Below are positions 6,979-16,331 of a stretch of DNA of 35,745 nt, piece after piece; position 1 is the first letter of the stretch, and every line of letters starts with the position of its first letter. The notes under the pieces are model-generated. The model was given only the letters and a program-made list of their open reading frames with translations. It was not told the DNA's origin and did not search any database. The stretch is from a virus. The stretch covers positions 1-35,745 of the IMG/VR virus record IMGVR_UViG_3300049847_000188. One strand, 5' to 3'. A program made the translations under genes and the position numbers.

Positions 6979-7008
6979 GGATTAGGGCGCAGTTATGCGA
7001 CCCAGCGA
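6979..7008 (-). repeat. 30-bp perfect inverted repeat, left copy (end of minus cassette arm)
   Basis: These 30 bases are the exact reverse complement of 16302-16331. On the minus strand the copy starts 11 nt after the stop of the last cassette-arm gene and contains GCATAACTGCGCCC, very like the left half of attC-2 (GCCTAACTGCGCCC). It looks like a half attC site. Both copies occupy the same place, at the outer end of an outward-reading arm. Confidence 0.75.
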
Positions 7009-7019
7009 CAAGTTCGACG

Positions 7020-7214
7020 TCATCGCTTCAGCCGCTCGTTGCATGCCTGGGCCGCCCACTCCGTGAGGCTCAGGCCCATGGCGTCAGCCGCGGCGCGCCA
7101 GGCAGCAAGCTCGGCCGGTTGGCAGCGCATCTCGAACCGAGCCGCCTTCGCTTGTCCTGGCTCCATCGGCTTGCGGCCCATCTTCTTGGCGGGGATGGCT
7201 ACAGGATTTTTCAC
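7020..7214 (-). CDS. Ribbon-helix-helix-like small protein
   Basis: 64 residues with a GTG start that overlaps the upstream stop (GTGA at 7214-7211), which fixes the start. After a basic N-terminus (KKMGRKPMEPGQAKAARFEM) the pattern RFEMRCQPAELAAWRAAADA followed by MGLSLTEWAAQACNERL is the beta-helix-helix layout of CopG/Arc or DUF1778-like proteins. These are DNA-binding dimers, often antitoxins or plasmid/phage repressors. The 52-residue gene upstream overlaps it, so the pair may form a two-component module. Fold assignment is by pattern. Confidence 0.65.
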   Translation of the reverse strand: MKNPVAIPAKKMGRKPMEPGQAKAARFEMRCQPAELAAWRAAADAMGLSLTEWAAQACNERLKR

Positions 7215-7409: not shown

Positions 7410-7655
7410 TTATGCATGGAAGTTGCCTTTTGCATCGAAGAACTTGACAAGCGGGCCGCGAGCCGCGTCAACTTCAGCTTTCGTGGTGCAAACAATCCTA
7501 CGCGCGTTGTCCATGCCGGATGCCGGGCCGTATCCGAGCGTATCCAGCAGGGCGCGCAGGTCGGCATGATCTGCTGCGGTGGTGCCGCGAACGACCAGCT
7601 CTGCAGCGGGCTTACCGTTGTGGGCAATCTTTGCGGCGGTGAACTTGGGGGTCAT
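7410..7655 (-). CDS. Hypothetical early protein with its own promoter
   Basis: 81 residues, ATG at 7655 preceded by CGGAGCACAAC. Basic N-terminus TPKFTAAKIAHNGKPAAELV, then VRGTTAADHADLRALLDTLG, and a C-terminal beta-like RIVCTTKAEVDAARGPLVKF. It is probably an alpha/beta small domain. It is the first unit beyond attC-1 and, unlike most cassettes, is bracketed by its own promoter (7691-7719) and a terminator (7386-7404), so it is an independently regulated single-gene transcription unit. Function unknown. Confidence 0.65.
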   Translation of the reverse strand: MTPKFTAAKIAHNGKPAAELVVRGTTAADHADLRALLDTLGYGPASGMDNARRIVCTTKAEVDAARGPLVKFFDAKGNFHA

Positions 7656-7690: not shown

Positions 7691-7735
7691 ATTCTGTACG
7701 GACAACAACGCTACGTCAAGCGCTTTCTGTACGGA
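7691..7735 (-). promoter_or_regulatory. Promoter with paired operator-like repeats
   Basis: On the minus strand TTGACG (-35, 7719-7714) and CAGAAT (-10, 7696-7691) are 17 bp apart. The 11-mer TCCGTACAGAA occurs twice in direct orientation (7735-7725 and 7702-7692), 33 bp start to start, about three helical turns. One copy covers the -10 and the other lies just upstream of the -35. Each is itself a near-palindrome around GTAC. This is the layout of a dimeric-repressor operator pair allowing co-operative binding. Confidence 0.6.
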
Positions 7736-7765
7736 AAGTATGTAAAGCCGCACGAAGTCAGCGAC

Positions 7766-7821
7766 GCCGAACTTATCGCTGCACGGGACGCCTGGCGGCG
7801 CCCGTGAGCTTTCAGTTAGCC
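7766..7821 (-). other. attC-1 (integron-type recombination site)
   Basis: Minus strand: GGCTAAC (7821-7815), then 42 bp, then GTTCGGC (7772-7766). The interior folds as GCT-CACGGG-CGCC with GGCG-T-CCCGTG-C-AGC, leaving two unpaired bases on one arm, as in true attC hairpins. The stop TAA of the 7816 gene is inside the first box. The R boxes deviate from consensus at one or two positions. Confidence 0.6.
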
Positions 7822-8010
7822 AGCAGCCTTCACCGCCGCTCGTTTTTCGGCCAGGTCGCGCGCATGCTGGCGGATCGCGTCAACGTCGCCAGGGTGCGCC
7901 CACAGGTTGCGCACTTCCACCAGGCCGGCGGCGTCGCGCTCTCGGCGAAGGTTGGCCTGGCGCTGGGCGGCAGTGAGTGGCCCCGCAGGGCCTGGTTGTT
8001 TGGCTGTCAC
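7816..8010 (-). CDS. Cassette protein, RHH-like small phage protein
   Basis: 64 residues from a GTG at 8010 that overlaps the stop of the 47-residue gene before it (GTGA); the frame is open farther upstream but that would run through the promoter. The N-terminus is a basic LTAAQRQANLRRERDAAGLV, then EVRNLWAHPGDVDAIRQHAR, then a basic C-terminal helix. The short strand followed by two helices is compatible with a CopG-like DNA-binding dimer. Proteins with this LRRERxxAGL and VRNxWAHPxD pattern are frequent in phages. The stop lies in attC-1. Confidence 0.65.
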   Translation of the reverse strand: MTAKQPGPAGPLTAAQRQANLRRERDAAGLVEVRNLWAHPGDVDAIRQHARDLAEKRAAVKAAG

Positions 8011-8150
8011 AGGCCAAGTTGCCGGATCAACTCGGCCGTGACGATCTGGTGAATTTCTTCTGCACTCGCTTGCGGGTGCAGGCGGCGGGCGGTTGCTTCT
8101 GCCTTTTGGTGCGCTTCGAAGAGGGCTGCGATGGCTTGTGCGGTGGTCAT
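8007..8150 (-). CDS. Short hypothetical protein, first gene of a two-gene cassette
   Basis: 47 residues, ATG at 8150 preceded by CCGGAGCAGCAAC. It reads TTAQAIAALFEAHQKAEATA followed by RRLHPQASAEEIHQIVTAEL and ends in a short IRQLGL, all helical. It is driven directly by the promoter at 8185-8213 and coupled to the RHH-like gene by a GTGA overlap. The pair has the shape of a toxin-antitoxin or repressor module, but neither protein matches a toxin I know. Confidence 0.6.
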   Translation of the reverse strand: MTTAQAIAALFEAHQKAEATARRLHPQASAEEIHQIVTAELIRQLGL

Positions 8151-8184
8151 GTTGCTGCTCCGGTTGGTTTGCTTCAGTGCCTTC

Positions 8185-8213
8185 AGTATAGCGCAGCGTT
8201 ACGCGTAACGCAA
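8185..8213 (-). promoter_or_regulatory. Cassette promoter with GTTACGCGTAAC operator
   Basis: On the minus strand TTGCGT (-35, 8213-8208) and TATACT (-10, 8190-8185) are exactly 17 bp apart, a strong sigma70-type promoter. A perfect 12-bp palindrome, GTTACGCGTAAC (8198-8209), overlaps the -35 edge and spacer, where a bound repressor would block RNA polymerase. The adjacent RHH-like protein is the obvious candidate ligand, which is inference. Confidence 0.7.
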
Positions 8214-8240
8214 GAACTATTTGCACCGTGTGCACATGCT

Positions 8241-8312
8241 GGCTAACTTACCCATCAACTCGGACCCCCAGCGGCTAGCGCCGCAGGGGTCCGGTTATGG
8301 GCGCAGTTAGGC
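8241..8312 (-). other. attC-2
   Basis: Minus strand: GCCTAAC (8312-8306), interior, GTTAGCC (8247-8241), 72 bp. The arms CCCAT-AAC-CGGACCCC-TGCGGC and the complement of the other arm (CCCATCAACTCGGACCCCC...) pair over more than 20 bp with about three extra unpaired bases on one side. The TGA of the preceding cassette gene is 9 nt from the first box. Confidence 0.75.
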
Positions 8313-8321
8313 CACTCAAAT

Positions 8322-8492
8322 TCAGACAGCGCAGCCGGCGTCGATGATCTGCAACAGCAGGCGCATTGCGTCGATCATCTCGTCGTAGTCAATCACGTCT
8401 TTTGCCGGGTCGCCGTTGTCTTCATACTCTATTGCTTCGCGCACCTTGGCAACCAGTTCGCGGTCGGTGTCGTCCATTTCGTATGCTTCCAT
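8322..8492 (-). CDS. Small, strongly acidic cassette protein
   Basis: 56 residues, ATG at 8492 preceded by GCGGAGAGAAGC. Seventeen Asp/Glu against five Lys/Arg, in blocks such as EAYEMDDTDRELV, IEYEDNGD and VIDYDEMIDAM. Helical throughout, ending RLLLQIIDAGCAV. The high negative charge and small size recall DNA-mimic anti-restriction or anti-repressor proteins of phages, but this is a property-based guess and no family is recognised. It is a promoterless single-gene cassette between attC-3 and attC-2. Confidence 0.65.
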   Translation of the reverse strand: MEAYEMDDTDRELVAKVREAIEYEDNGDPAKDVIDYDEMIDAMRLLLQIIDAGCAV

Positions 8493-8520
8493 GCTTCTCT
8501 CCGCTCCGGCCACCAGATTG

Positions 8521-8607
8521 GCCTAACCCTGCGTTGCAGCGGACGTGCCGCCAGCAGGGTGGGTACTCGAATGTCCAGCGGGCACGCCGCTGAACTCCAC
8601 GTTAGGC
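8521..8607 (-). other. attC-3
   Basis: Minus strand: GCCTAAC (8607-8601) and GTTAGGC (8527-8521) are both perfect consensus boxes, 87 bp overall. Inner boxes GTTCAGCGG and CCGCTGCAAC pair with one unpaired base. The TAA of the upstream gene is inside the first box. This is a textbook attC of the type found in chromosomal and environmental integrons. Confidence 0.85.
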
Positions 8608-8838
8608 CTGCCACTCGCCGAGCAAAACGCACGCCTGGCACTCCGGATCGCGGCCATTCCAGTTGCCTTGCTCTGGGCATCCGCCGTTGAATATGTGCTT
8701 GCTGTCGTCGGTCAATAGCTTCCACTTTGCGCGCTCTGCTGCAACCGCTGCATTCCATGTGTATTCTGCAAGAAGCTGCTTTTCTTTCGGCATGCCGTCA
8801 ATTGCCCAATCGCTCCAATGCTTCCGTTTTGCTTCCAT
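8602..8838 (-). CDS. Cassette protein, hypothetical
   Basis: 78 residues, ATG at 8838 after GAGAGGAAACC. It reads EAKRKHWSDWAIDGMPKEKQ, then AWN-like WNAAVAAERAKWKLLTDD, then a Cys/Asn/Gly-rich end (GGCPEQGNWNGRDPECQACV). Three Cys residues late in the protein could bind metal. The WNAAVAAERxKW stretch is familiar from small phage proteins. No promoter is visible in the cassette. The stop is the TAA of attC-3. Confidence 0.65.
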   Translation of the reverse strand: MEAKRKHWSDWAIDGMPKEKQLLAEYTWNAAVAAERAKWKLLTDDSKHIFNGGCPEQGNWNGRDPECQACVLLGEWQA

Positions 8839-8859
8839 GGTTTCCTCTCCGGACCACAG

Positions 8860-8944
8860 GCCTAACCTATCAATCAACCGGACGCCCCAAGCGCTCGGTC
8901 ACCTTGCCAGCGCCGTGCAGCGCCGGTTATTTCCGCAGTTAGGC
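8860..8944 (-). other. attC-4
   Basis: Minus strand: GCCTAAC (8944-8938), GTTAGGC (8866-8860), 85 bp, both perfect boxes. Inner arms AATAACCGGCGCTG and GCGTCCGGTTGATT pair imperfectly with unpaired bases. It is the same length as, and highly similar to, attC-5, and its arms are also shared with attC-9 in the opposite arm. Confidence 0.85.
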
Positions 8945-8945
8945 G

Positions 8946-9239
8946 TCACCACATCTGCACCGTGCCGCACACACGACACTTGTATTCGCGGCCGTTGGCG
9001 TACTCCTCCAGGTAAGCCATGTCCTCACTCCCGCATTCGCGGCAGTATGGCTCTTTGTATTCTTCTCCGCTTTCGCCAGTGCGCAGTTCATAAGGCCGTG
9101 CGCACTGCCCAGCAACACCGCCCTGCAGTTGCATCTTCTGGATAATCGTATCTGGCCAACTCGCTACCTCGGTCTGCTTTTTCTCGCTGAATTCCTTGCG
9201 TCGGCGTGCAATAGTTGCCGGCGTGTATTTCTCTGGCAT
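8946..9239 (-). CDS. Cassette protein with zinc ribbon
   Basis: 97 residues, ATG at 9239 preceded by GAAAGGAAACC. The basic N-terminus PEKYTPATIARRRKEFSEKK is followed by a helix and then a C-terminal four-Cys zinc ribbon: CRECGSEDMAYLEEYANG then YKCRVCGTVQMW. The two CxxC knuckles are about 20 residues apart, a typical rubredoxin-like ribbon. A transcription or nucleic-acid-binding role is possible. The stop TGA lies one base before the first box of attC-4. Confidence 0.7.
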   Translation of the reverse strand: MPEKYTPATIARRRKEFSEKKQTEVASWPDTIIQKMQLQGGVAGQCARPYELRTGESGEEYKEPYCRECGSEDMAYLEEYANGREYKCRVCGTVQMW

Positions 9240-9266
9240 GGTTTCCTTTCGCTTGGTGGCCCACAG

Positions 9267-9351
9267 GCCTAACCTATCAACCAACCGGACGCCCCAGGCA
9301 TCCACTCACTTTGCCGGCGCCGTGCAGCGCCGGTTATTTCATACGTTAGGC
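9267..9351 (-). other. attC-5
   Basis: Minus strand: GCCTAAC (9351-9345), GTTAGGC (9273-9267), 85 bp, both perfect. It shares nearly all of its outer thirds and much of its centre with attC-4. The stop TAA of the 9346 gene is within the first box. Confidence 0.85.
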
Positions 9352-9759
9352 ATGCTCGCGCACAGTGTTGCGTGCGTAGCGCAGCAAGTCCGCCAAGCCA
9401 ACATAGTTTCCGTATGGGCCGCTCCAGCACCCGGCATCGCCCCAAAGGCGCACTTGCCCGGCGTGGTTCAAACAGCAGGGCTTGTATCCAGGCTTGTTGC
9501 TGCACTGCCAGTGGCTCACGACAAAGCCGGTGTCTTTGGTGGTCTCCATCAGAATCACCTTGTCCTCCAAGCTCAAGCCGCTGTCCCACCACGGCCGCGT
9601 CTGGTGCGCTCTGGTCAGCGCCGCCATCAGCGTCGCGCCGTTGTCCAGCATGTTGTTCGCGGCGGCCAGGTCGGCGCATTGCTGATCGTACTCTAGGCAA
9701 TGCGCCTCGCTCAGAAAATGCTTGCCGTCTTTGGCTTCGTACATCGTCACGGTTTTCAT
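9346..9759 (-). CDS. Cassette protein, hypothetical, Trp/Cys-rich
   Basis: 137 residues, ATG at 9759 with GTGGAGAGC upstream. It starts KTVTMYEAKDGKHFLSEAHC, a start typical of a family of phage proteins in which a short strand is followed by a helix (CLEYDQQCADLAAANNML). The C-terminal half is rich in Trp, Cys and Gly (VVSHWQCSNKPGYKPCCLNH then GDAGCWSGPYGNYVG). It is the largest cassette protein. Biochemical role unknown. Promoterless, stop codon in attC-5. Confidence 0.65.
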   Translation of the reverse strand: MKTVTMYEAKDGKHFLSEAHCLEYDQQCADLAAANNMLDNGATLMAALTRAHQTRPWWDSGLSLEDKVILMETTKDTGFVVSHWQCSNKPGYKPCCLNHAGQVRLWGDAGCWSGPYGNYVGLADLLRYARNTVREHA

Positions 9760-9786
9760 ATATGCTCTCCACGATCTTATGGGCAT

Positions 9787-9844
9787 GCCTAACAATTCAT
9801 TGCAGCGGACGACCTGCGGGCTCCGCTGAATTCAAACGTTAGGC
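9787..9844 (-). other. attC-6
   Basis: Minus strand: GCCTAAC (9844-9838), GTTAGGC (9793-9787), 58 bp, both perfect. Inner arms TTCAGCGGA and TCCGCTGCAA pair with one unpaired base, like attC-3. This matches the classic short 59-base-element form. It follows directly the TAA of the 9839 gene. Confidence 0.88.
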
Positions 9845-10204
9845 CCCAAGGGCACCGTCTGCCACCCGCGCCAGGTAAGAAAGCTCGGCCGTATCGCCGC
9901 CAATCTCGATTTCCTCGTCCACGGTCATGTCGGCATAGGCGGGGTGCGACTTGATGCGGTCGCGGATTTCGGTCAGCGCGGCGCGCAAATCTCCAATCTG
10001 CTGCCGCGACATGTCCGCGTTGTTGCGTTCATGGTCTAGTGCGGCCTGGTCGTACAGCGGTTCTGGAATGGCAAGCGGTGGCAGCAGTGCCCCAGGGATC
10101 GAGTCCATGTGTGTCCAATAGCTTGCCTGTACGCGCCACGCCACAGGCCTAACTTGTCCATCAACCGGAATAACCCCGGCGCTTTGTGTTTGTGCTTCGT
10201 TCAT
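9839..10204 (-). CDS. Cassette protein whose N-terminus is encoded within attC-7
   Basis: 121 residues. The ATG at 10204, with GAGGAAACT upstream, lies in the loop of attC-7, so the first 17-20 residues (NEAQTQSAGVIPVDGQVRP) are read from the attC right arm; GTTAGGC encodes Val-Arg. The body has PVAWRVQ, then PEPLYDQAALDHERNNADMS, then an Ile/Asp/Glu-rich helix. PVAWR...PLY is a familiar opening for small accessory phage proteins. Function unknown. Stop in attC-6. Confidence 0.68.
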   Translation of the reverse strand: MNEAQTQSAGVIPVDGQVRPVAWRVQASYWTHMDSIPGALLPPLAIPEPLYDQAALDHERNNADMSRQQIGDLRAALTEIRDRIKSHPAYADMTVDEEIEIGGDTAELSYLARVADGALGA

Positions 10205-10246
10205 AGTTTCCTCGCCGGTGTTATCCGGTTATGTCGGCAGTTAAGC
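10147..10246 (-). other. attC-7 (contains a start codon)
   Basis: Minus strand: GCTTAAC (10246-10240), GTTAGGC (10153-10147), 100 bp. Arms CAT-AACCGGATAACACCGGCG and the complement of CGCCGGGGTTATTCCGGTTGATG pair over about 20 bp with unpaired bases. The ~30-nt loop holds the RBS and ATG of the next gene. The stop TAA of the 10241 gene is inside the first box. Confidence 0.75.
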
Positions 10247-10462
10247 GTCAACTTCCTCAACCGCCGCAACATCACAAAGATCATCGGCTTTGTCCCACGC
10301 TTCGCGCTCAGAGGCGTATCGGGTAGCTTCAAACTTGCGGCACGGGAACCCGTTGTCATAGTTGTAGGCGCCGTCTGCGTAGCGAATCACGTATTGACGC
10401 CTAACAGTGCGCTCAACCGGACCTTCGTCGGCGGGCTGCGTTTGTTCGTTTGTCGTGCGCAT
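10241..10462 (-). CDS. First cassette protein of the minus arm, hypothetical
   Basis: 73 residues, ATG at 10462 preceded by AAGGAGG, the strongest RBS in the arm. The N-terminus RTTNEQTQPADEGPVERTVR is encoded by the right half of a degenerate attC, just as in the 9839 gene (compare TQ...PVDGQVRP with TQ...PVERTVRR). The body, RRQYVIRYADGAYNYDNGFP then ATRYASEREAWDKADDLCDV, looks like a small mixed-fold domain. Promoterless; close to the early operator, so probably among the most expressed cassettes. Confidence 0.62.
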   Translation of the reverse strand: MRTTNEQTQPADEGPVERTVRRQYVIRYADGAYNYDNGFPCRKFEATRYASEREAWDKADDLCDVAAVEEVDA

Positions 10463-10497
10463 CAGGGCGCCTCCTTGTCCGGCCAGCTCTCATTCAT
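10399..10497 (-). other. attC-8, degenerate
   Basis: The right half is clear: minus-strand GTCCGGTTGAGC then GTTAGGC (10405-10399), matching attC-7. The left half is weak: GCTGGCCGGAC near 10480 can pair with the right arm, but the first box at the stop of the repressor gene no longer matches RYYYAAC. The RBS and ATG of the 10462 gene lie inside, as in attC-7. Confidence 0.45.
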
Positions 10498-10685
10498 CGC
10501 CACTCCTTTCTTGCCGGCGGATACCCGCGCACAGCCAGGATTGCCTTGATCTTTGTGAGCGTGATGTCATCCCCACTGAGCGCCCTGTACAGCGTGCTGC
10601 GCGAACATTTCGCCGCCCTGCTGACCGCTGCGACCGTCCAGCCGTTGCCGATCAGCCTGGTGATGTGTGCCTGTGCTCGTGTCAT
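10494..10685 (-). CDS. Cro/CI-like early repressor
   Basis: 63 residues, ATG at 10685. The whole protein is essentially one helix-turn-helix unit: RAQAHITRLIGNGWTVAAVS, then RAAKCSRSTLYRALSGDDIT, where VAAVSRAAKCSRSTLYRAL is the HTH, then LTKIKAILAVRGYPP. Size and position beside a divergent operator fit a Cro-type regulator acting on both early promoters. No separate large CI repressor with a cleavage domain is visible, so lysogeny is not demonstrated. First gene of the minus arm. Confidence 0.75.
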   Translation of the reverse strand: MTRAQAHITRLIGNGWTVAAVSRAAKCSRSTLYRALSGDDITLTKIKAILAVRGYPPARKEWR

Positions 10686-10706
10686 GGCTGCATCATACGC
10701 CATCGC

Positions 10707-10747
10707 TGCGACACTTGTGTATCTTTTTTTGGTGCACAAGTGTCGCA
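10707..10747. promoter_or_regulatory. Divergent early operator
   Basis: TGCGACACTTGTG (10707-10719) and CACAAGTGTCGCA (10735-10747) form a perfect 13-bp inverted repeat with a 15-bp spacer containing a run of seven T. It lies between the divergent repressor and 10830 genes. Weak promoter-like hexamers are present on both strands, but I do not commit to a -10/-35 assignment. It is the obvious site for the adjacent HTH protein. Confidence 0.65.
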
Positions 10748-10829
10748 AAAATAGCTTGCAATGCGTGGCGCCGTGTGCCAAAGTCCAGACATCGCAGCAC
10801 ACACCGCGCTGCACACCAAGGGGATCAAG

Positions 10830-11318
10830 ATGACTACCGGACACGATGTGACTGACCGATGGGCCGAAATGTGCCGCAGCGCCCAGAATGCGGGCGCAAG
10901 CAGGATGCACCTGCTGGAAGCGCACGTTCTGGCGGCGATGCAGGAGTGCCGCAGGCTGGGGGGCGCGCTCGACAAAGCTCGGCACCATATCGATACGCAC
11001 CTGGCGGCGATCGAACAACTACGAGCGCGCATCACGCCGCCCGATCCCGTTCGCGGCCTGACCCGTGCGCATGGCCTGCACCTGCTCAACGAGGCCGGCA
11101 AGCTGATTCCCGTCGACGCCGATTTCTCGGTGGACGAGGACGAAGGCGTGCAGGTCGAATATGTCTGGATCGGCGCGCACGACGTGGCCGGCATGTTTTG
11201 GGCATCGCACGCCGAGCGGCTGGCCGACCAGATAACCGCACGCCTGCGTGAAGACGCGGCCGAGCAACGCGCAGAGCAGCGCGGCGAGGCTCGCAAAGAA
11301 CTGAGGGCCGCAGCATGA
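10830..11318 (+). CDS. First rightward early gene, hypothetical helical protein
   Basis: 162 residues from the ATG at 10830, selected because AAGGGGATCAAG lies just upstream; the frame is open to 10761. The sequence has long amphipathic helices (RMHLLEAHVLAAMQECRRLG, HHIDTHLAAIEQLRARITPP), an acidic central part with an EDEGVQVEYVW beta segment, and a very charged, Ala/Glu/Arg-rich C-terminus (REDAAEQRAEQRGEARKELR). It overlaps the next gene by ATGA. No family recognised. Confidence 0.65.
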   Translation: MTTGHDVTDRWAEMCRSAQNAGASRMHLLEAHVLAAMQECRRLGGALDKARHHIDTHLAAIEQLRARITPPDPVRGLTRAHGLHLLNEAGKLIPVDADFSVDEDEGVQVEYVWIGAHDVAGMFWASHAERLADQITARLREDAAEQRAEQRGEARKELRAAA

Positions 11319-11659
11319 GCAAGCACACACCGGGGCCGTGGTTCATCGCCGGGTCAATGACAAAGTACATCGAAGCCAAGATCGGAAACGGATGGATTCA
11401 AGAAGTTGCATCTGTTGGTCCGACAGAAGCAGACAAAGGCTATGGCGCTCAACAAGAAGCAAACGCCCGCCTGATCGCTGCCGCGCCTGAGCTGCTGGAG
11501 GCGCTGCGCGAACTGCTGACGGACATGGTGATTGCGCAGGCAAACATGCGCAGCGCTGCGCGCCGTGACGCCAGTTGGGATGGCTGCTCCAATGCTATCC
11601 AGCCCCGAGTTGATGCAGCCCTCGCAGCCATCGCCAAAGCAACCGGAGACGCATCATGA
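11315..11659 (+). CDS. Conserved small phage protein (HTPGPW family)
   Basis: 114 residues. Begins SKHTPGPWFIAGSMTKYIEA and later has EANARLIAAAPELLEALREL, the two hallmark blocks of a family of small proteins very common in phage early regions and host prophages. The middle is a beta meander (AKIGNGWIQEVASVG). Biochemical role unknown. The ATG overlaps the upstream stop and its own stop overlaps the next gene, so the rightward early genes are translationally coupled. Confidence 0.75.
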   Translation: MSKHTPGPWFIAGSMTKYIEAKIGNGWIQEVASVGPTEADKGYGAQQEANARLIAAAPELLEALRELLTDMVIAQANMRSAARRDASWDGCSNAIQPRVDAALAAIAKATGDAS

Positions 11660-12006
11660 GCCAGACCCTCGCCCACCTCATCCGCGAAGAGCTGCGCGGC
11701 CTGCCAAGCTGCCGCGGTGACTGCGGACAACACCGCAAGCCTTGCCCATCGCCAAAAACATGCAGGATGTTCGTCGATGAGCTCGAATCAGCGCTCTACA
11801 CCAGCTTGCACCGGGTAACGCCTGCCAAGCCTGAGCCCGAGGAAAACAGCTTGCTCGCCTTCATCGACGGCTGGCTGACGAATGTCCACATGCTGGCCAT
11901 CGGCGGCATTGCTGCCGGGATCGTGGCGGCATGCTTTTTGATCGTCTACATCCTGACGGACTACGCCGATTTTGTGGCCCTGGTGGCGAGGATGCACACA
12001 CCATGA
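11656..12006 (+). CDS. Single-pass membrane protein with Cys cluster
   Basis: 116 residues. The cytoplasmic-type N-terminus has a cluster of Cys residues (CRGDCGQHRKPCPSPKTC), a possible metal site. Near residue 80 a hydrophobic stretch MLAIGGIAAGIVAACFLIVY followed by ILTDYADFVALVA is a clear transmembrane helix. It is the first of three small membrane proteins in this arm (with 12230 and 12696). An early phage membrane protein could act in superinfection exclusion or host takeover, which is inference. Confidence 0.65.
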   Translation: MSQTLAHLIREELRGLPSCRGDCGQHRKPCPSPKTCRMFVDELESALYTSLHRVTPAKPEPEENSLLAFIDGWLTNVHMLAIGGIAAGIVAACFLIVYILTDYADFVALVARMHTP

Positions 12007-12233
12007 ACGCACACAGACTTGCTTGCGCACTGGAAGACCCAAAGCGCTGGACTGCGCTGAGCGATGCCGACTGCGACGCAGCAGCTGCAGAACTGCGCCG
12101 GCTTGACGCACTGAATGCGCAGATGCTGGATGCGCTGAGGCGATCTCTGAAGTTGCTCGAATACGCCGGATGTGCAGCTTCTGATGAGGCCGCAGAAGCC
12201 CGCGCAGCCATCGCAGCAGGAGAGCAGAAATGA
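12003..12233 (+). CDS. Hypothetical small early protein
   Basis: 76 residues; the ATG at 12003 overlaps the upstream stop, which fixes the start. NAHRLACALEDPKRWTALSD, then a helical DADCDAAAAELRRLDALNAQ, then MLDALRRSLKLLEYAGC and an Ala/Glu tail. It is an alpha-helical adaptor-sized protein with no metal or membrane motif. Part of the overlapping rightward early chain. Confidence 0.6.
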   Translation: MNAHRLACALEDPKRWTALSDADCDAAAAELRRLDALNAQMLDALRRSLKLLEYAGCAASDEAAEARAAIAAGEQK

Positions 12234-12313
12234 GCCGCGCGACATTCTGGCAGGTGTACCTTTTCGCAGTTCTCCCGCTTTGCGCCTGCGGCATCTGGTG
12301 GTGCCTATCATGA
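12230..12313 (+). CDS. 27-residue membrane micropeptide
   Basis: 27 residues, starting in an ATGA overlap and ending in another one with the 12310 gene. The peptide SRATFWQVYLFAVLPLCACG then IWWCLS is one hydrophobic helix with aromatic ends, enough for a single membrane span. It is too short for most annotation. Conservation of both overlaps argues that it is translated and not just a spacer. Function unknown. Confidence 0.5.
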   Translation: MSRATFWQVYLFAVLPLCACGIWWCLS

Positions 12314-12699
12314 CCAGGCCTGAAAAAATGAGCGACGCGCAAATCATGCACGCACGATCCACGGCATGGGAAAAATGGGATGGCGAAGGTGACCAGCGGC
12401 TTTGGTATGCCCGTGTGATCGAGGCCGCCCGCGATGCGCAGTGGGAAGCCGCACTGGCAGACAGCGGCAAGCCTGCAACGCCCTACGCCTGGGCAGTCAC
12501 CGGGATGGGCCGCCTTTTTTTCGGTGCGTTCGCAGCGTTCGACGCAAAAGATGAGGCAAAGCGCTGCGGCGGGGATACGCGGGCTTTCCCCCTCTACACA
12601 TCGCCAGCGAACGAAAGCCCGGTGGCGCATGCGCCTGGTGTATGCATCGACATCAACGGCTCGTCCATGATTGGCACGAAAGGCAAGGTGACCCCATGA
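12310..12699 (+). CDS. Small accessory phage protein (AWAV...PLYTS motif)
   Basis: 129 residues. The N-terminal half is helical (KMSDAQIMHARSTAWEKWDG), the second half begins PYAWAVTGMGRLFFGAFAAF and has the block DEAKRCGGDTRAFPLYTS. A YAWAV opening with a late PLYTS end is a widespread small domain in phages of this host group, and the 9839 cassette protein has a similar PVAWR...PLY layout. Role unknown. ATGA overlaps at both ends. Confidence 0.65.
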   Translation: MTRPEKMSDAQIMHARSTAWEKWDGEGDQRLWYARVIEAARDAQWEAALADSGKPATPYAWAVTGMGRLFFGAFAAFDAKDEAKRCGGDTRAFPLYTSPANESPVAHAPGVCIDINGSSMIGTKGKVTP

Positions 12700-12878
12700 C
12701 CGACTCGCGATTTGACCAGGACACTGGCATTGATCGCCCGCCAGCCCGCCGGCATGGTGTGCTGCAAGATATTGTGCTGTGCACCCTACTTCTGATCAGC
12801 ATCGCCGCTGCATGGCTTTACGGCCTGGCGCTTGAGTGCTGGCGCGATGCGATCCGCTGGGCCACCGGCCGCGAATGA
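12696..12878 (+). CDS. Single-pass membrane protein
   Basis: 60 residues. Hydrophilic N-terminus (TDSRFDQDTGIDRPPARRHG), then a transmembrane helix LQDIVLCTLLLISIAAAWLY, then a short charged tail ending RWATGRE. The start overlaps the upstream stop. It is the last gene before a 147-bp gap and RecT. The gap shows no clear promoter, and has GAGAGGGAAC as the RBS for RecT. Confidence 0.6.
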   Translation: MTDSRFDQDTGIDRPPARRHGVLQDIVLCTLLLISIAAAWLYGLALECWRDAIRWATGRE

Positions 12879-13025
12879 CTTCGTGCGATCCCGCCCGCAA
12901 ACCCCGGCCAGCGCATCGGCAGGGCGGTTGATCGGGGCTTCTCTCGGCCCTCCCTGAAGCGGCATCGGACCACCCGCGACAAATGCAGCAACGGTTCACC
13001 ATCAACCAACTACCCGAGAGGGAAC

Positions 13026-13889
13026 ATGAGCAACGCACTGACCACCACCGGCAGCTTCTCGCTGGCCCCCCAGAGCCTCGATGAGGCCTTCCGATTCGCC
13101 GACATGCTCGCCGCATCCGACATGATCCCGAAGGACTTCCAGCGCAAGCCGGGGAACATCCTGGTCGCCATGCAATGGGGCGCCGAGGTCGGCCTGAAGC
13201 CGCTGCAGGCGCTGCAGAACATCGCCGTCATCAACGGCCGCCCGAGCCTGTGGGGTGATGCCGTCATCGCCCTGGTGCGCAACTCGCCGACCTGCGAATA
13301 CGTGATCGAAGAGGAAGAAGGCGACGCCGCCGTGTGCCGCGTCAAGCGCCGCGGCGAGCCCGAGCAGGTGCGCACGTTCAGCATGGCAGACGCCAAGACG
13401 GCAGGACTGGCCGGCAAGGCCGGGCCGTGGACACAATACCCGCGCCGCATGCGCCAGATGCGCGCCCGAGCCTTCGCGCTGCGCGACGTGTTCCCGGACG
13501 TGCTCAAGGGTCTGCCCGTGGCCGAAGAACTGATCGACATGCCGGCGGATGCTGTGCCAGAGCAGCGCCCGGCGCCAAAGCACATGGGAGCTGTTGAGCA
13601 AGTCAAGCAGGCCACGCCAGCGCCCAGCGAAGACCTCGTGAACGCCGCCCAGGACGCCAGCCTGCAAGGTGTGGCCGCCTATGCCGCATGGTTCGCCACG
13701 ATCACCAAGGACGAGCGAAAGCAGCTCGACGCGGCAGGGCACCACAAGGCGTGTAAGAAGGCGGCCGAGGAAGTCGACGCAGAGGCAGCGACTGCGCCAG
13801 AGGCTGACCCGCGCGCCGTGATGTACAAGGCCGCGCCGGCCGTGGCTGATGAGGTGGCGCCGGCCGTGGCTGATGAGGTGGCGCCGTGA
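13026..13889 (+). CDS. recT: RecT-family single-strand annealing protein
   Basis: 287 residues, ATG at 13026 after a GAGAGGGAAC RBS. The core (residues 8-150) has LAPQSLDEAFRFADMLAASD, PGNILVAMQWGAEVGLKPLQ, ALQNIAVINGRPSLWGDAVI and the later PRRMRQMRARAFALRDVFPD, the conserved RecT/Bet-type blocks. These proteins anneal complementary single strands, using ends made by the partner exonuclease encoded immediately downstream. The C-terminus is an Ala/Val/Asp linker made partly of a tandem 8-residue repeat. Confidence 0.9.
   Translation: MSNALTTTGSFSLAPQSLDEAFRFADMLAASDMIPKDFQRKPGNILVAMQWGAEVGLKPLQALQNIAVINGRPSLWGDAVIALVRNSPTCEYVIEEEEGDAAVCRVKRRGEPEQVRTFSMADAKTAGLAGKAGPWTQYPRRMRQMRARAFALRDVFPDVLKGLPVAEELIDMPADAVPEQRPAPKHMGAVEQVKQATPAPSEDLVNAAQDASLQGVAAYAAWFATITKDERKQLDAAGHHKACKKAAEEVDAEAATAPEADPRAVMYKAAPAVADEVAPAVADEVAP
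13833..13880 (+). repeat. Tandem 24-bp repeat in RecT C-terminus
   Basis: Two perfect adjacent copies of a 24-bp unit (13833-13856 and 13857-13880) encode the repeated peptide APAVADEV at the protein's end. It is a recent in-frame duplication and probably a length-variable linker. Confidence 0.85.
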
Positions 13890-14647
13890 TCGTCTACGAC
13901 ATGCCGCAAGGAAGTGATCAGTGGCACGCCGCCCGCGCTGGCGTGTGCACGGCCAGCATGTTCTCGACGGCGCGCACGCGAGTCGGCGGGCTGACCGACC
14001 AGCAGGCCGAGTACGTAAAGGCGCTGAAGGCAGGCCAGAACGAGCGCGAGGCGATGAGCCTGGCCGGCTACAAGGCCAGGCCGCGCGCCGCCGCCATCGA
14101 TGCCGCCATGGAAGGACGAGACACCAGCGAGCCCGGGAAGACGGCGCTCGACTACGCCTTCGGACTAGCCATAGAGCGCATCAGCGGCGCCCCGCTCGAC
14201 GACGGCTTCGAGAACTACTTCACCCGCCGTGGTCATGAGCTTGAGGCGACCGCGTTGGACCGGTACGAGGTCGATACGGGTCGCATGGTGCAGCGCTGCG
14301 GATTCGTCTGCACCGACGACCGCAAGTTCGGCGCAAGCGCTGACGGACTGGTCGGCGCGGATGGTGGCGTCGAGGTCAAGGCCTGGGTTGACCCCGTGAA
14401 GCTGCGCGCCGTGCTGACCCGATCGGACATCACCGAAGTCCGCGACCAGTGCCTGGGCGGGATGTGGGCCACCGGCCGCAAGTGGTGGGACTTCGTCCTG
14501 TACTGCCCTGCGCTGGACCCCATCGGCCGCGCCCTGACGATCATCCGCATCGACCGCGACGACAACGCCATCGACGCCCTCGAATCCGACCTGTTGGCCT
14601 TCGACAAGATCGTTGAGGGCTACCGCAAGCAACTGGAGCAAGAATGA
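13886..14647 (+). CDS. YqaJ-type (lambda-exonuclease fold) viral recombinase
   Basis: 253 residues with a GTG start overlapping the RecT stop (GTGA). Near the N-terminus QGSDQWHAARAGVCTASMFS is the family signature. FENYFTRRGHELEATALDRY gives the conserved Glu, and the PD-(D/E)xK core is visible as Asp153 (FGASADGLVG) and Glu163-Val-Lys165 (GVEVKAW). It digests one strand from double-strand ends to produce substrate for RecT. Genes in this order form a Red-like recombination system. Confidence 0.9.
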   Translation: MIVYDMPQGSDQWHAARAGVCTASMFSTARTRVGGLTDQQAEYVKALKAGQNEREAMSLAGYKARPRAAAIDAAMEGRDTSEPGKTALDYAFGLAIERISGAPLDDGFENYFTRRGHELEATALDRYEVDTGRMVQRCGFVCTDDRKFGASADGLVGADGGVEVKAWVDPVKLRAVLTRSDITEVRDQCLGGMWATGRKWWDFVLYCPALDPIGRALTIIRIDRDDNAIDALESDLLAFDKIVEGYRKQLEQE

Positions 14648-15069
14648 ACACCGCCACCACCGAAGCGCCGACCAGCGCACTCGCCGAGTACAACCGAACC
14701 GCCGCCGAGTTGGCGGACCTTCGCCAGCGCTTCGCGGGCGTGGTGTGGGACGTGGCCACCACCAAGGGCAACGCCGAGGCCCGCGCCGCCCGCCGCCGCG
14801 CGCTGTGGCTGGGAGAGCAGGCCCAGGAAGCGACCGCGCCTATCCCCATGCAGCCCGTGCCTGCCGCTGCAGACGAGCAGGCCACGATCAAGCTCGGCGA
14901 CATCTGCGCACGCATCGCGCCGTTGAGCATCAGCGCCGCAGGACTGGCAGAGCTCGGCATCGTGCACAGCGACACCGACAAGGCCGCCAAGCTCTACCGG
15001 CACAGCGATCTGCCGCGCATCCGCGATGCGCTGGTGCGGCATGTTGTGCGCACGCTGGGCGAGGCCTAA
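14644..15069 (+). CDS. Recombination-module accessory protein with HTH-like C-terminus
   Basis: 141 residues, ATGA overlap with the exonuclease. The N-terminal 60 residues are helical (EYNRTAAELADLRQRFAGVV), the middle is an Ala/Pro linker, and the C-terminal part ATIKLGDICARIAPLSISAA then GLAELGIVHSDTDKAAKLYR and PRIRDALVRHVVRT resembles a small DNA-binding domain common behind phage YqaJ genes. The stop TAA is inside the first box of attC-9, so the rightward cassette arm starts exactly at the end of this gene. Confidence 0.7.
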   Translation: MNTATTEAPTSALAEYNRTAAELADLRQRFAGVVWDVATTKGNAEARAARRRALWLGEQAQEATAPIPMQPVPAAADEQATIKLGDICARIAPLSISAAGLAELGIVHSDTDKAAKLYRHSDLPRIRDALVRHVVRTLGEA

Positions 15070-15147
15070 CTGCTGAAATAACCGGCGCCCGCCGAGCGCC
15101 GAGAAACAAGTGAGCCGGATGGCGTCCGGTTGATTGATAAGTTATGC
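15064..15147 (+). other. attC-9
   Basis: Plus strand: GCCTAAC (15064-15070), GTTATGC (15141-15147), 84 bp. Arms AATAACCGGCGCC and GGCGTCCGGTTGATT pair imperfectly, as in attC-4 and attC-5. The TAA of the 14644 gene is in the first box. Confidence 0.8.
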
Positions 15148-15173
15148 AGCGCCTGGTGCGCGGAGAGGAATAT

Positions 15174-15458
15174 ATGGACTGGATAGATCTAGTTGTCCGC
15201 GATGTCTGTGAGTTGGATTACACATCCCCGGATGGTCAAGCTGATGTAATGCTGGTGACTGCGGCAGAGTTGCGTGTGATTTTGGAAAACCATGCACCAT
15301 CAGAGCATGACGCCGAGCGCTACCAGTGGCTGCGCCGCTGGAAAGGCCAAGAGCACGAACCGCCGTTCACCGTGCAGCACGCACTACTGGACGGCGCGCT
15401 GTGGGGCGGCGATCTTGACGCGGCCATTGATGCGGCGAGAGCCGTTGGCGCTGCATAA
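15174..15458 (+). CDS. Cassette protein, phage DAERYQWLR-type
   Basis: 94 residues from the ATG at 15174, chosen because GCGGAGAGGAATAT precedes it; an in-frame ATG at 15144 lies inside the GTTATGC box of attC-9. The N-terminus is acidic (DWIDLVVRDVCELDYTSPDG), then a helix with SEHDAERYQWLRRWKGQEHE and a C-terminal GDLDAAIDAARAVGAA. The DAERYxWLR...AIDAA pattern is a common small phage/cassette domain of unknown role. The stop TAA is the second half of the GCATAAC box of attC-10. Confidence 0.68.
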   Translation: MDWIDLVVRDVCELDYTSPDGQADVMLVTAAELRVILENHAPSEHDAERYQWLRRWKGQEHEPPFTVQHALLDGALWGGDLDAAIDAARAVGAA

Positions 15459-15511
15459 CGCTAGGTTAAGCGGCTGGCCGTAGGCACGTCCGCTTGAACC
15501 GACAGTTAGGA
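15453..15511 (+). other. attC-10
   Basis: Plus strand: GCATAAC (15453-15459), GTTAGGA (15505-15511), 59 bp. Inner arms GGTTAAGCGG and CCGCTTGAACC pair with one unpaired C, as expected. Outer boxes each differ by one base from the strict consensus. Confidence 0.72.
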
Positions 15512-15525
15512 ATCATGGAGTGAAT

Positions 15526-15756
15526 ATGGCGCTAAAGATTTTTCACGATGGCAGTAAGGATGGCGAGATGCAGGAGAACTGCTGCATGTGCCGCAAGCCG
15601 ACGCGCTGGTGGTGTGGTACAGGTGCGCGCAATGTGGCGCTGTGCCATGACTGCGCGAAGACGACGAAGGCCAGCGAACTGCCGACCAAAGAGGCTTGGT
15701 GCGCGAAAGATCGCAAGTTGATTTCGACCTTGGCACGCCGACACTTTGGCTGGTGA
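15526..15756 (+). CDS. Cassette protein with Cys-rich zinc site
   Basis: 76 residues, ATG at 15526 with GGAG just upstream; an in-frame GTG at 15520 is an alternative. ALKIFHDGSKDGEMQENCCM then CRKPTRWWCGTGARNVALCH and DCAKTT provide CxxC and CHxC pairs, a compact four-ligand zinc knuckle, followed by a basic C-terminus ending LARRHFGW. Could bind nucleic acid. Promoterless; the stop TGA is one base before attC-11. Confidence 0.68.
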   Translation: MALKIFHDGSKDGEMQENCCMCRKPTRWWCGTGARNVALCHDCAKTTKASELPTKEAWCAKDRKLISTLARRHFGW

Positions 15757-15757
15757 T

Positions 15758-15815
15758 GCCTAACGTTTGACATGAACGGACGCCGAAGGCGGTCCGTTCG
15801 ATGGATTAGTTAGGC
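15758..15815 (+). other. attC-11
   Basis: Plus strand: GCCTAAC (15758-15764), GTTAGGC (15809-15815), 58 bp, both perfect. Arms CAT-GAACGGAC-GCC and the complement of GGCGGTCCGTTCGATG pair with two unpaired bases. It is an excellent attC by all structural criteria. Confidence 0.88.
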
Positions 15816-15832
15816 GTCCGTGGAGAAGCAAT

Positions 15833-15997
15833 ATGTTTGACCTGATCAACGTGTATATCAAGGTCGCCGGGCGATGGGTATACCAGGAGGGCACAAGGAT
15901 GCACAAGACACTTGCAGCATGCGCTCGGCATTACTCGGACGTGTACGGCATTGAGGTGCAGTGCAGGTTCGCCGCCAGCGAGGGAGATCATGGCTGA
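15833..15997 (+). CDS. Short cassette protein, first of two
   Basis: 54 residues, ATG at 15833 preceded by GTGGAGAAGCAAT. FDLINVYIKVAGRWVYQEGT then HKTLAACARHYSDVYGIEVQ and CRFAASEGDHG, beta then helix. The end overlaps the next start. It is shorter than usual ORF cut-offs but has an RBS, begins 18 bp after attC-11 as cassette genes do, and is coupled to the next gene. Function unknown. Confidence 0.55.
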   Translation: MFDLINVYIKVAGRWVYQEGTRMHKTLAACARHYSDVYGIEVQCRFAASEGDHG

Positions 15998-16328
15998 CCT
16001 GGCGCTGTATCCGGTTGATGAGGTGCAGCGGCTGTATGCCACCATCGCCGACCTGCGCGAGAGGCTCGCTGCAGCCGGCGATGGGGCGACCCTTGGCGCT
16101 GCTGATGTGGTGCTTTTGCGTTCCCTGGGCAGCCGGGAAATGACGCGGCGCGAGCTTGCCAAGGACACCGGGATGTCCGCCGAATACCTGCACGTCCGGC
16201 TGTACCGACTGCGGGCAGCCGGGAAGATCGAGCAGTCCGGCAGGAAGCCGCGCATCGGCAAAGGACAGGGCGAGTGGGTGTGGCGCAAGACGCCTAACTT
16301 TTCGCTGGGTCGCATAACTGCGCCCTAA
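15990..16328 (+). CDS. Cassette protein, winged-helix-like regulator
   Basis: 112 residues, ATG at 15990 overlapping the previous stop. A coiled N-terminal helix (YATIADLRERLAAAGDGATL) precedes a clear winged-helix segment: DVVLLRSLGSREMTRRELAK, then DTGMSAEYLHVRLYRLRAAG, then KIEQSGRKPRIGKGQGEWVW. The last residues (PNFSLGRITAP) are encoded by a GCCTAAC box and the 30-bp repeat read in frame without stopping, so the natural end may have been extended by the half attC. Last gene of the plus arm, convergent with the holin-like gene. Confidence 0.68.
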   Translation: MADLALYPVDEVQRLYATIADLRERLAAAGDGATLGAADVVLLRSLGSREMTRRELAKDTGMSAEYLHVRLYRLRAAGKIEQSGRKPRIGKGQGEWVWRKTPNFSLGRITAP

Positions 16329-16331
16329 TCC
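16302..16331 (+). repeat. 30-bp perfect inverted repeat, right copy (end of plus cassette arm)
   Basis: The exact reverse complement of 6979-7008. It contains GCATAACTGCGCCC, similar to the start of attC-2, and is preceded by GCCTAAC (16292-16298). No matching right half (GTTRRRY) follows, so it is a half-site. It overlaps the last codons of the 15990 gene. Confidence 0.75.

Follow-up and report, generated by a model that had tools for sequence, protein, structure and literature searches.

The DNA stretch analyzed here (the window; IMG/VR virus record IMGVR_UViG_3300049847_000188, 35,745 bases in full) comes from a podovirus-type phage, a virus of bacteria, and contains ten attC sites, the recombination sites of integron gene cassettes, distributed over two early operons that diverge from a repressor-like region at ~10.5-10.8 kb. 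At each of these sites the genes run against the polarity of attC, an arrangement that we refer to as mirror polarity. This polarity is systematic in a group of related phages, and it is the main point missed by the initial annotation of this DNA, which was made from the sequence alone. We consider it likely, judging from sequence comparisons, that the window carries two mirror-polarity integron cassette arrays moved by the integron integrase (IntI), with the integrase itself probably borrowed.

The attC sites were identified with a covariance model that was trained on 36 attC sites from bacterial integron arrays, and on zero phage sites, and was scored at every position of the window. Exactly ten sites were recovered, with scores of 30.5 to 63.2 bits (E values from 1.5e-5 to 1.2e-13), and the best match anywhere else in the 35.7 kb reached 10.0 bits. 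All ten sites display the attC architecture, with RYYYAAC and GTTRRRY boxes, paired arms, and unpaired bases in one arm; the confinement of these extra unpaired bases to one arm underlies a pronounced strand asymmetry of the scores (30-63 bits for the attC strand, never above 19 for its complement). The bottom strand, which is the recombining strand in known integrons, folds better than shuffled sequences at 9 of the 10 sites (z -2.6 to -6.2), the weakest fold being that of the site at 15453-15511 (z -1.4). The initial annotation had listed ten full attC sites, which are confirmed here, and had proposed both a covariance-model search, with at least eight sites expected to score as attC, and folding of the bottom strands. 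The degenerate eleventh site that it placed beside the repressor gene (attC-8, 10399-10454) was rejected, with a score of 9.0 bits, which is at the background level. The ten sites are listed below under their initial numbers, with the strand of canonical attC polarity and the covariance-model score.

attC site 1, 7766-7821, plus strand (local genes on minus): 35.7 bits on plus; fold z -2.7
attC site 2, 8241-8312, plus strand: 31.1 bits on plus, 8.4 on minus; fold z -6.2
attC site 3, 8521-8607, plus strand: 63.2 bits on plus, 19.4 on minus
attC site 4, 8860-8944, plus strand: 57.8 bits; fold z -4.2
attC site 5, 9267-9351, plus strand: 54.9 bits; fold z -4.7
attC site 6, 9787-9844, plus strand: short type, boxes GCCTAAC/GTTAGGC; 49.1 bits; fold z -3.7
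attC site 7, 10147-10246, plus strand: 35.9 bits
attC site 9, 15064-15147, minus strand (local genes on plus): 58.9 bits on minus, 10.0 on plus
attC site 10, 15453-15511, minus strand: 30.5 bits on minus; fold z -1.4
attC site 11, 15758-15815, minus strand: 44.0 bits on minus, 11.9 on plus; fold z -5.7

The loop of attC site 7 (10147-10246) contains a Shine-Dalgarno-like GAGGAAAC and a possible ATG of the next gene at 10204. No match to the IntI family model TIGR02249 was found in the window record, and the window, with ten sites and no intI, thus falls under the definition of a cassette array without an integrase (CALIN; at least two nearby attC sites, no intI). The attC and IntI searches therefore confirm the initial description of integron-type cassettes in the two early operons of a podovirus with no integrase in its record.

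With respect to polarity, the strands first assigned to the sites have to be reversed: attC polarity is plus for the seven sites of the minus operon and minus for the three sites of the plus operon, so that genes oppose attC at 10 of 10 sites, and the canonical cassette layout, with the gene running along attC and its stop near R'', is found at none of them. It had been noted correctly, as judged from the sequence and the open reading frames (ORFs), that in 7 of 10 cases the TAA of a box is the stop of the preceding gene; because the genes oppose attC in all ten cases, however, the "first box" bearing these stops is the complement of R', at the crossover point, and not R''. The window shares this layout, consisting of a reversed attC, a stop at the R' box, and a Shine-Dalgarno sequence after R'', with the mirror-cassette phages. 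Among phage contigs, 29 of the 30 scorable arrays are mirror and 1 is canonical (91 vs 2 genes), in a sample that is not a random census, since it was assembled by means of a single attC sequence pattern, through a search starting from three phage integrases, and from the relatives of the window terminase. By comparison, all 22 scorable arrays in a broad bacterial sample are canonical, and so are 10 of the 11 scorable arrays from Burkholderiales, the other one being mirror (20 loci picked by integrase similarity, with locus L310 set aside). The difference between phage and bacterial arrays is highly significant (Fisher p ~1e-15), with the proviso that the arrays are related and not fully independent. 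Polarity was scored on codon-model gene calls after removal of near-duplicate contigs; a test based on the longest ORFs was abandoned because it is noisy in GC-rich sequences, where antisense ORFs made two window sites look canonical. Two published phage examples, Tetrasphaera phage TJE1 and Shewanella phage M16-3, were scored as well, and both are canonical.

The anatomy of the unit follows from the positions of stops and starts. In the phage arrays, 31 of 74 stops coincide with the box TAA and another 21 occur as TGAC directly before the box (52 of 74 together), and past the gene-side end of the site, 129 of 182 cases show a Shine-Dalgarno sequence with a start codon, vs 15 of 184 on the opposite side. 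Thus, a mirror cassette consists of attC, Shine-Dalgarno sequence, gene, and a stop in or beside the R' crossover box. The attC stems of the intI-bearing phages show 432 double-sided changes vs 143 in shuffled sequences, a count biased in that direction by the fitting of the alignment to the model.

Although the window itself lacks intI, and hence is not a complete integron, the gene is present in its relatives. IntI sequences scoring above the curated family cut-off, with the catalytic residues aligned, were found in three attC-bearing phage contigs, and a scan of IMG/VR seeded with these three yielded 48 viral IntI loci, many of which carry an attC array immediately upstream in the standard intI/attC geometry. 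In a phylogenetic tree built together with bacterial integrases (27 from the broad sample and 20 from Burkholderiales), 23 viral IntI and that of L310 form one clade (support 100/96) nested among the IntI of Burkholderiales, which are mostly 55-66% identical to the phage type. No LexA-like box was detected within 300 nt upstream of any of 43 viral intI genes, compared with 14 of 27 bacterial intI genes but 4 of 19 from Burkholderiales. Nine further viral IntI fall outside the main phage clade in two groups (L264/L266/L267/L268/L274 and L270/L272/L273/L275), the arrays of which are poorly scored by the covariance model. L310 (G168:C13:1-13000) is a Burkholderiales genome contig, probably a prophage, on which a phage-clade IntI is accompanied by seven attC sites in a mirror array. 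In L285 (Virus Rctr41k, KX853513), the IntI is annotated as xerD, the operon genes are all on one strand, and two weak attC-like sites lie downstream of intI.

The intI-bearing phages share a locus order, namely, genes, mirror cassettes, attI, intI, usually a phage integrase (of the tyrosine type, and of the serine type in L261), and then convergent late genes. In L241 (9050-10972), the position directly behind intI is taken not by a phage integrase but by a ParB-like gene, which points to a phage-plasmid carrying a mirror integron. The window shows the same order at 15.0-20.5 kb minus intI and the phage integrase, with late genes directly following an attI-like site. The window is therefore a CALIN-type relative of the mirror-cassette phage integrons and, given that it keeps the locus order without either integrase gene, looks like a non-autonomous member of this phage group. 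Both attC orientations are also present in contigs G004, G016, G017, G018, and G022, consistent with one array per divergent operon. Bacterial contamination as the source of the arrays was ruled out, as the arrays adjoin terminase, tail, and phage integrase genes.

Upstream of the phage intI genes, a block AACTTAAATTC...GTCGCATAACT is conserved, and everything before its AAC is variable. A motif covering the two ends of this attI was found, among the viral loci, only at the attI sites of phage intI and in the two 69-nt inverted repeats that form the ends of the two window arrays; there were zero occurrences in the bacterial loci. The resemblance of the window repeats to phage attI is suggestive only, because the motif was drawn up after both had been seen and the spacing differs. 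The two attI-like sites are as follows (the arrow marks the putative cleavage point).

Plus-array end, 16293-16330, plus strand: in the gene direction GCCTAA↓CTTTTCGCTGGGTCGCATAACTG; half of the 69-nt inverted repeat
Minus-array end, 6980-7014, minus strand: GTCGAA↓CTTGTCGCTGGGTCGCATAACTG; the other half of the 69-nt inverted repeat

Evidence of cassette turnover, and with it indirect support for recombination by an integron integrase, comes from the sister phages L240 and L241, which are 99% identical where shared. Each carries one whole cassette that is absent from the other, with the breakpoints located exactly at AA↓C (G↓TT on the attC top strand), and the two also differ in the cassettes next to attI. 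In the window itself, the attC at 8521-8607 is nearly identical to L006 5459-5545, and that at 15453-15511 to a site in phage contig L013, in both cases with unrelated genes on both sides. The hairpins are thus not fixed in place without cassette turnover, the outcome that, according to the initial annotation, would have spoken against an integron origin; whole cassettes differ between sister phages at exact crossovers, and two window attCs occur in other phages beside different genes. Among the copies of window attCs that were found, the nearest are in other phages, not bacteria. Cassettes in the related phages encode DNA methyltransferases, Dam, Mom, exonuclease, and dATP/dGTP diphosphohydrolase.

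These observations suggest the following scenario. The window possesses two mirror arrays, each occupying the downstream part of one of the divergent early operons. In the gene direction, each unit starts at a cleavage point and continues with C, the reversed attC, GTTRRRY, a Shine-Dalgarno sequence, and the gene, whose stop lies in or just before the RYYYAA that ends at the next cleavage point. Anywhere in the array, an inserted unit would supply its own ribosome-binding site and closing stop, and the phage early promoters would transcribe it. Cassettes would move by IntI-catalyzed recombination between folded attC bottom strands, with IntI probably supplied to the window in trans by a related phage or a host integron, and the window may keep attI-like sites at both array ends. 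The reversed polarity makes the bottom strand, which must fold, the coding strand, which is displaced during transcription; with forks moving in the direction of the genes, it would also serve as the lagging-strand template. A likely advantage of mirror polarity would therefore be more recombination than in stable chromosomal arrays. Placement of the attC bottom strand on the lagging-strand template favors recombination (Loot et al. 2017, PMC5371416). In broader terms, it seems probable to us that phages own a separate class of integrons, in which an IntI clade taken once from a Burkholderiales-type integron, with no detectable SOS box and located beside the phage integrase, shuffles mirror-oriented early accessory cassettes within a phage-only pool, and of which the window would be a non-autonomous member with arrays in both early operons and IntI acting in trans.

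Several observations weigh against cassette movement by IntI in the window phage. Neither intI nor a tyrosine recombinase candidate is present in the window, whose arrays could therefore be fossils. Among the isolated phages in INPHARED, none encodes an IntI that exceeds 60% identity to the phage type, and nearly all the material consists of metagenomic assemblies. GC skew fixed neither the origin nor the direction of replication. The attI-like repeat of the window shares just two short blocks with phage attI, at different spacing, and the attI-like motif is absent at the array ends of the other intI-less two-array phages examined. Finally, for the window attCs shared with L006 and L013, in which the genes on both sides are swapped, site-specific exchange alone is insufficient. 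This sharing of two attCs, together with the RecT and exonuclease encoded beside the plus array, speaks for the alternative in which the attC-like repeats are homology linkers between which genes are shuffled by phage RecT/exonuclease annealing, with the integrase no longer involved. We regard this explanation as unlikely but serious enough to be reckoned with: the bulged bases, box pairing, and stem covariation are retained, the sister-phage breakpoints fall exactly at the IntI crossover base and not within homology, and relatives retain an intact-looking IntI with its catalytic residues.

Two other explanations fit the data less well. A plain CALIN in a phage, that is, ordinary bacterial cassettes acquired by chance from a chromosomal integron of the host, would account for the occurrence of the matching attC type in many bacterial integrons and would have precedents in known phage CALINs. 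Such an origin is nevertheless improbable, given that all ten window sites are reversed relative to the genes, whereas the bacterial arrays checked, TJE1, and M16-3 are canonical, that the closest copies found of the window attCs reside in other phages rather than in bacteria, and that the cassettes of the related phages encode phage-type genes (DNA methyltransferases, Mom, exonuclease). The placement of the hairpins between small genes, and two terminator-like matches inside attCs (9313-9334 and 15082-15102), could be taken to indicate transcription terminators or mRNA structures with no integron link. We give this possibility hardly any credence, because both terminator-like matches are antisense to the genes around them, the sites fit the attC model down to the unpaired bases and boxes, and in relatives such sites flank the intI gene and attI, with no loss of polarity or box conservation seen across the relatives. 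Movement of mirror cassettes by IntI remains our preferred reading.

The genes of the two arrays, and those at their borders, are the following.

7020-7214, minus: small gene that by eye resembles a ribbon-helix-helix gene; its end, TGAC-GTCGAAC, lies at the left attI-like site; ORF
7410-7655, minus: small gene that lies downstream of attC 1 and belongs to the unit closest to the left attI-like site; ORF with no PHROG match
7816-8010, minus: cassette gene; ends at the R' TAA of attC 1; attC-bearing phages L201 and L202 have homologues
8322-8495, minus: cassette gene; Shine-Dalgarno directly past attC 3
8602-8841, minus: cassette gene; ends at the R' TAA of attC 3; Shine-Dalgarno past attC 4
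8946-9242, minus: cassette gene; weak zinc-ribbon match; 80% identical over ~55 amino acids to a cassette of phage L011
9346-9771, minus: cassette gene; ends at the R' TAA of attC 5
9839-10114, minus: cassette gene; ends at the R' TAA of attC 6; 10204, within attC 7, is a possible start
10241-10462, minus: gene that opens the minus operon; ends at the R' TAA of attC 7
14644-15069, plus: phage gene following RecT and exonuclease; ends at the R' TAA of attC 9; attC-bearing phage G018 has a homologue
15144-15458, plus: cassette gene; Shine-Dalgarno suggests a start near 15174; ends at the R' TAA of attC 10
15520-15756, plus: cassette gene preceding attC 11; ORF
15833-15997, plus: cassette gene of 54 amino acids following attC 11; read from the sequence
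15990-16328, plus: last gene of the plus array; winged-helix-like, weak match

The initial description of the units as mostly promoterless agrees with a crude scan, which found 2 promoter-like sites vs 2.0 expected, one of them inside a cassette. One unit contains, at 7691-7745, a promoter-like TTGACG-17-CAGAAT with a palindromic CTTTCCGTACAGAAAG. Another contains, at 8146-8222, an operator-like palindrome GTTACGCGTAAC, in a region 79% similar to L006 4614-4685; no other locus was found to have the palindrome itself. An inverted repeat GCGACACTTGTG / CACAAGTGTCGC (10690-10764), which adjoins the repressor-like gene between the divergent early operons, is a probable operator.

Outside the arrays, the window encodes the terminase large subunit (TerL), major head protein, head protein, tail protein, replicative helicase, and replication initiator, in addition to RecT and the exonuclease. 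Its terminase has hundreds of relatives in IMG/VR (top identity 76%), is 45-57% identical to the terminases of Yersinia, Alcaligenes, and Acinetobacter phages, and is ~60% identical to the TerL of contig L237/L142. No tRNA was found in the window, and neither was any Rfam match at the gathering thresholds. The array region had no match in INPHARED by Megablast or blastn, two window cassette proteins likewise had none in INPHARED, and a blast search of PLSDB with one window attC returned no match.

Phage early regions are rich in small, fast-changing genes, some with counter-defense functions, and it has long been asked how such genes change hands. A phage-encoded integron would offer a precise route, moving single genes with their own ribosome-binding site and stop and leaving the operon undamaged. 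The methyltransferase, Dam, Mom, and dATP/dGTP diphosphohydrolase cassettes of the related phages fit roles in genome modification and counter-restriction. Mirror polarity would also keep phage cassettes apart from the bacterial pool: a phage cassette that entered a bacterial array would have its gene antisense to the array promoter. Moreover, with the recombining strand being the coding strand, it amounts to a natural experiment on the direction of bacterial cassettes.

The occurrence of attC clusters in phages is already known, a point on which the initial remark that an array in both early operons of a podovirus is very unusual needs correction; neither mirror polarity nor a phage IntI clade was found in the open-access literature. 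Qi et al. 2023 (PMC9892861) described 17 integrase-less attC clusters in phages, with 5 of 6 tested sites recombining with IntI1, and many more are present in IMG/VR. Like the window, these phage CALINs are attC arrays with small genes in phage genomes and an integrase-less record, but the TJE1 array is canonical, whereas those of the window are mirror; the parts of that report considered here contain no integrase clade of phages, no mirror polarity, and no conserved locus with the phage integrase. The complete integrons of Shewanella phage M16-3 and Vibrio anguillarum phages, also from Qi et al. 2023, resemble the phage integrons considered here in having intI and an attC array inside a prophage. 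Unlike them, M16-3 has a canonical and divergent array, and its IntI groups with bacterial IntI rather than with the phage clade. Sedentary chromosomal integrons of Burkholderiales and other Proteobacteria share with the phage group the attC architecture and the intI/attI/attC geometry, and the phage IntI nest among those of Burkholderiales; however, sedentary cassette genes run with attC and away from intI, whereas phage cassette genes run toward it, and many sedentary integrons have LexA-like boxes before intI, with none found before phage intI. In integrons with a reversed intI, such as that of Treponema denticola, intI itself is flipped. These integrons and the phage group are alike in that intI and the cassette genes occupy one strand, but the phage group has the standard intI/attC geometry, and it is the cassette genes that are flipped instead.

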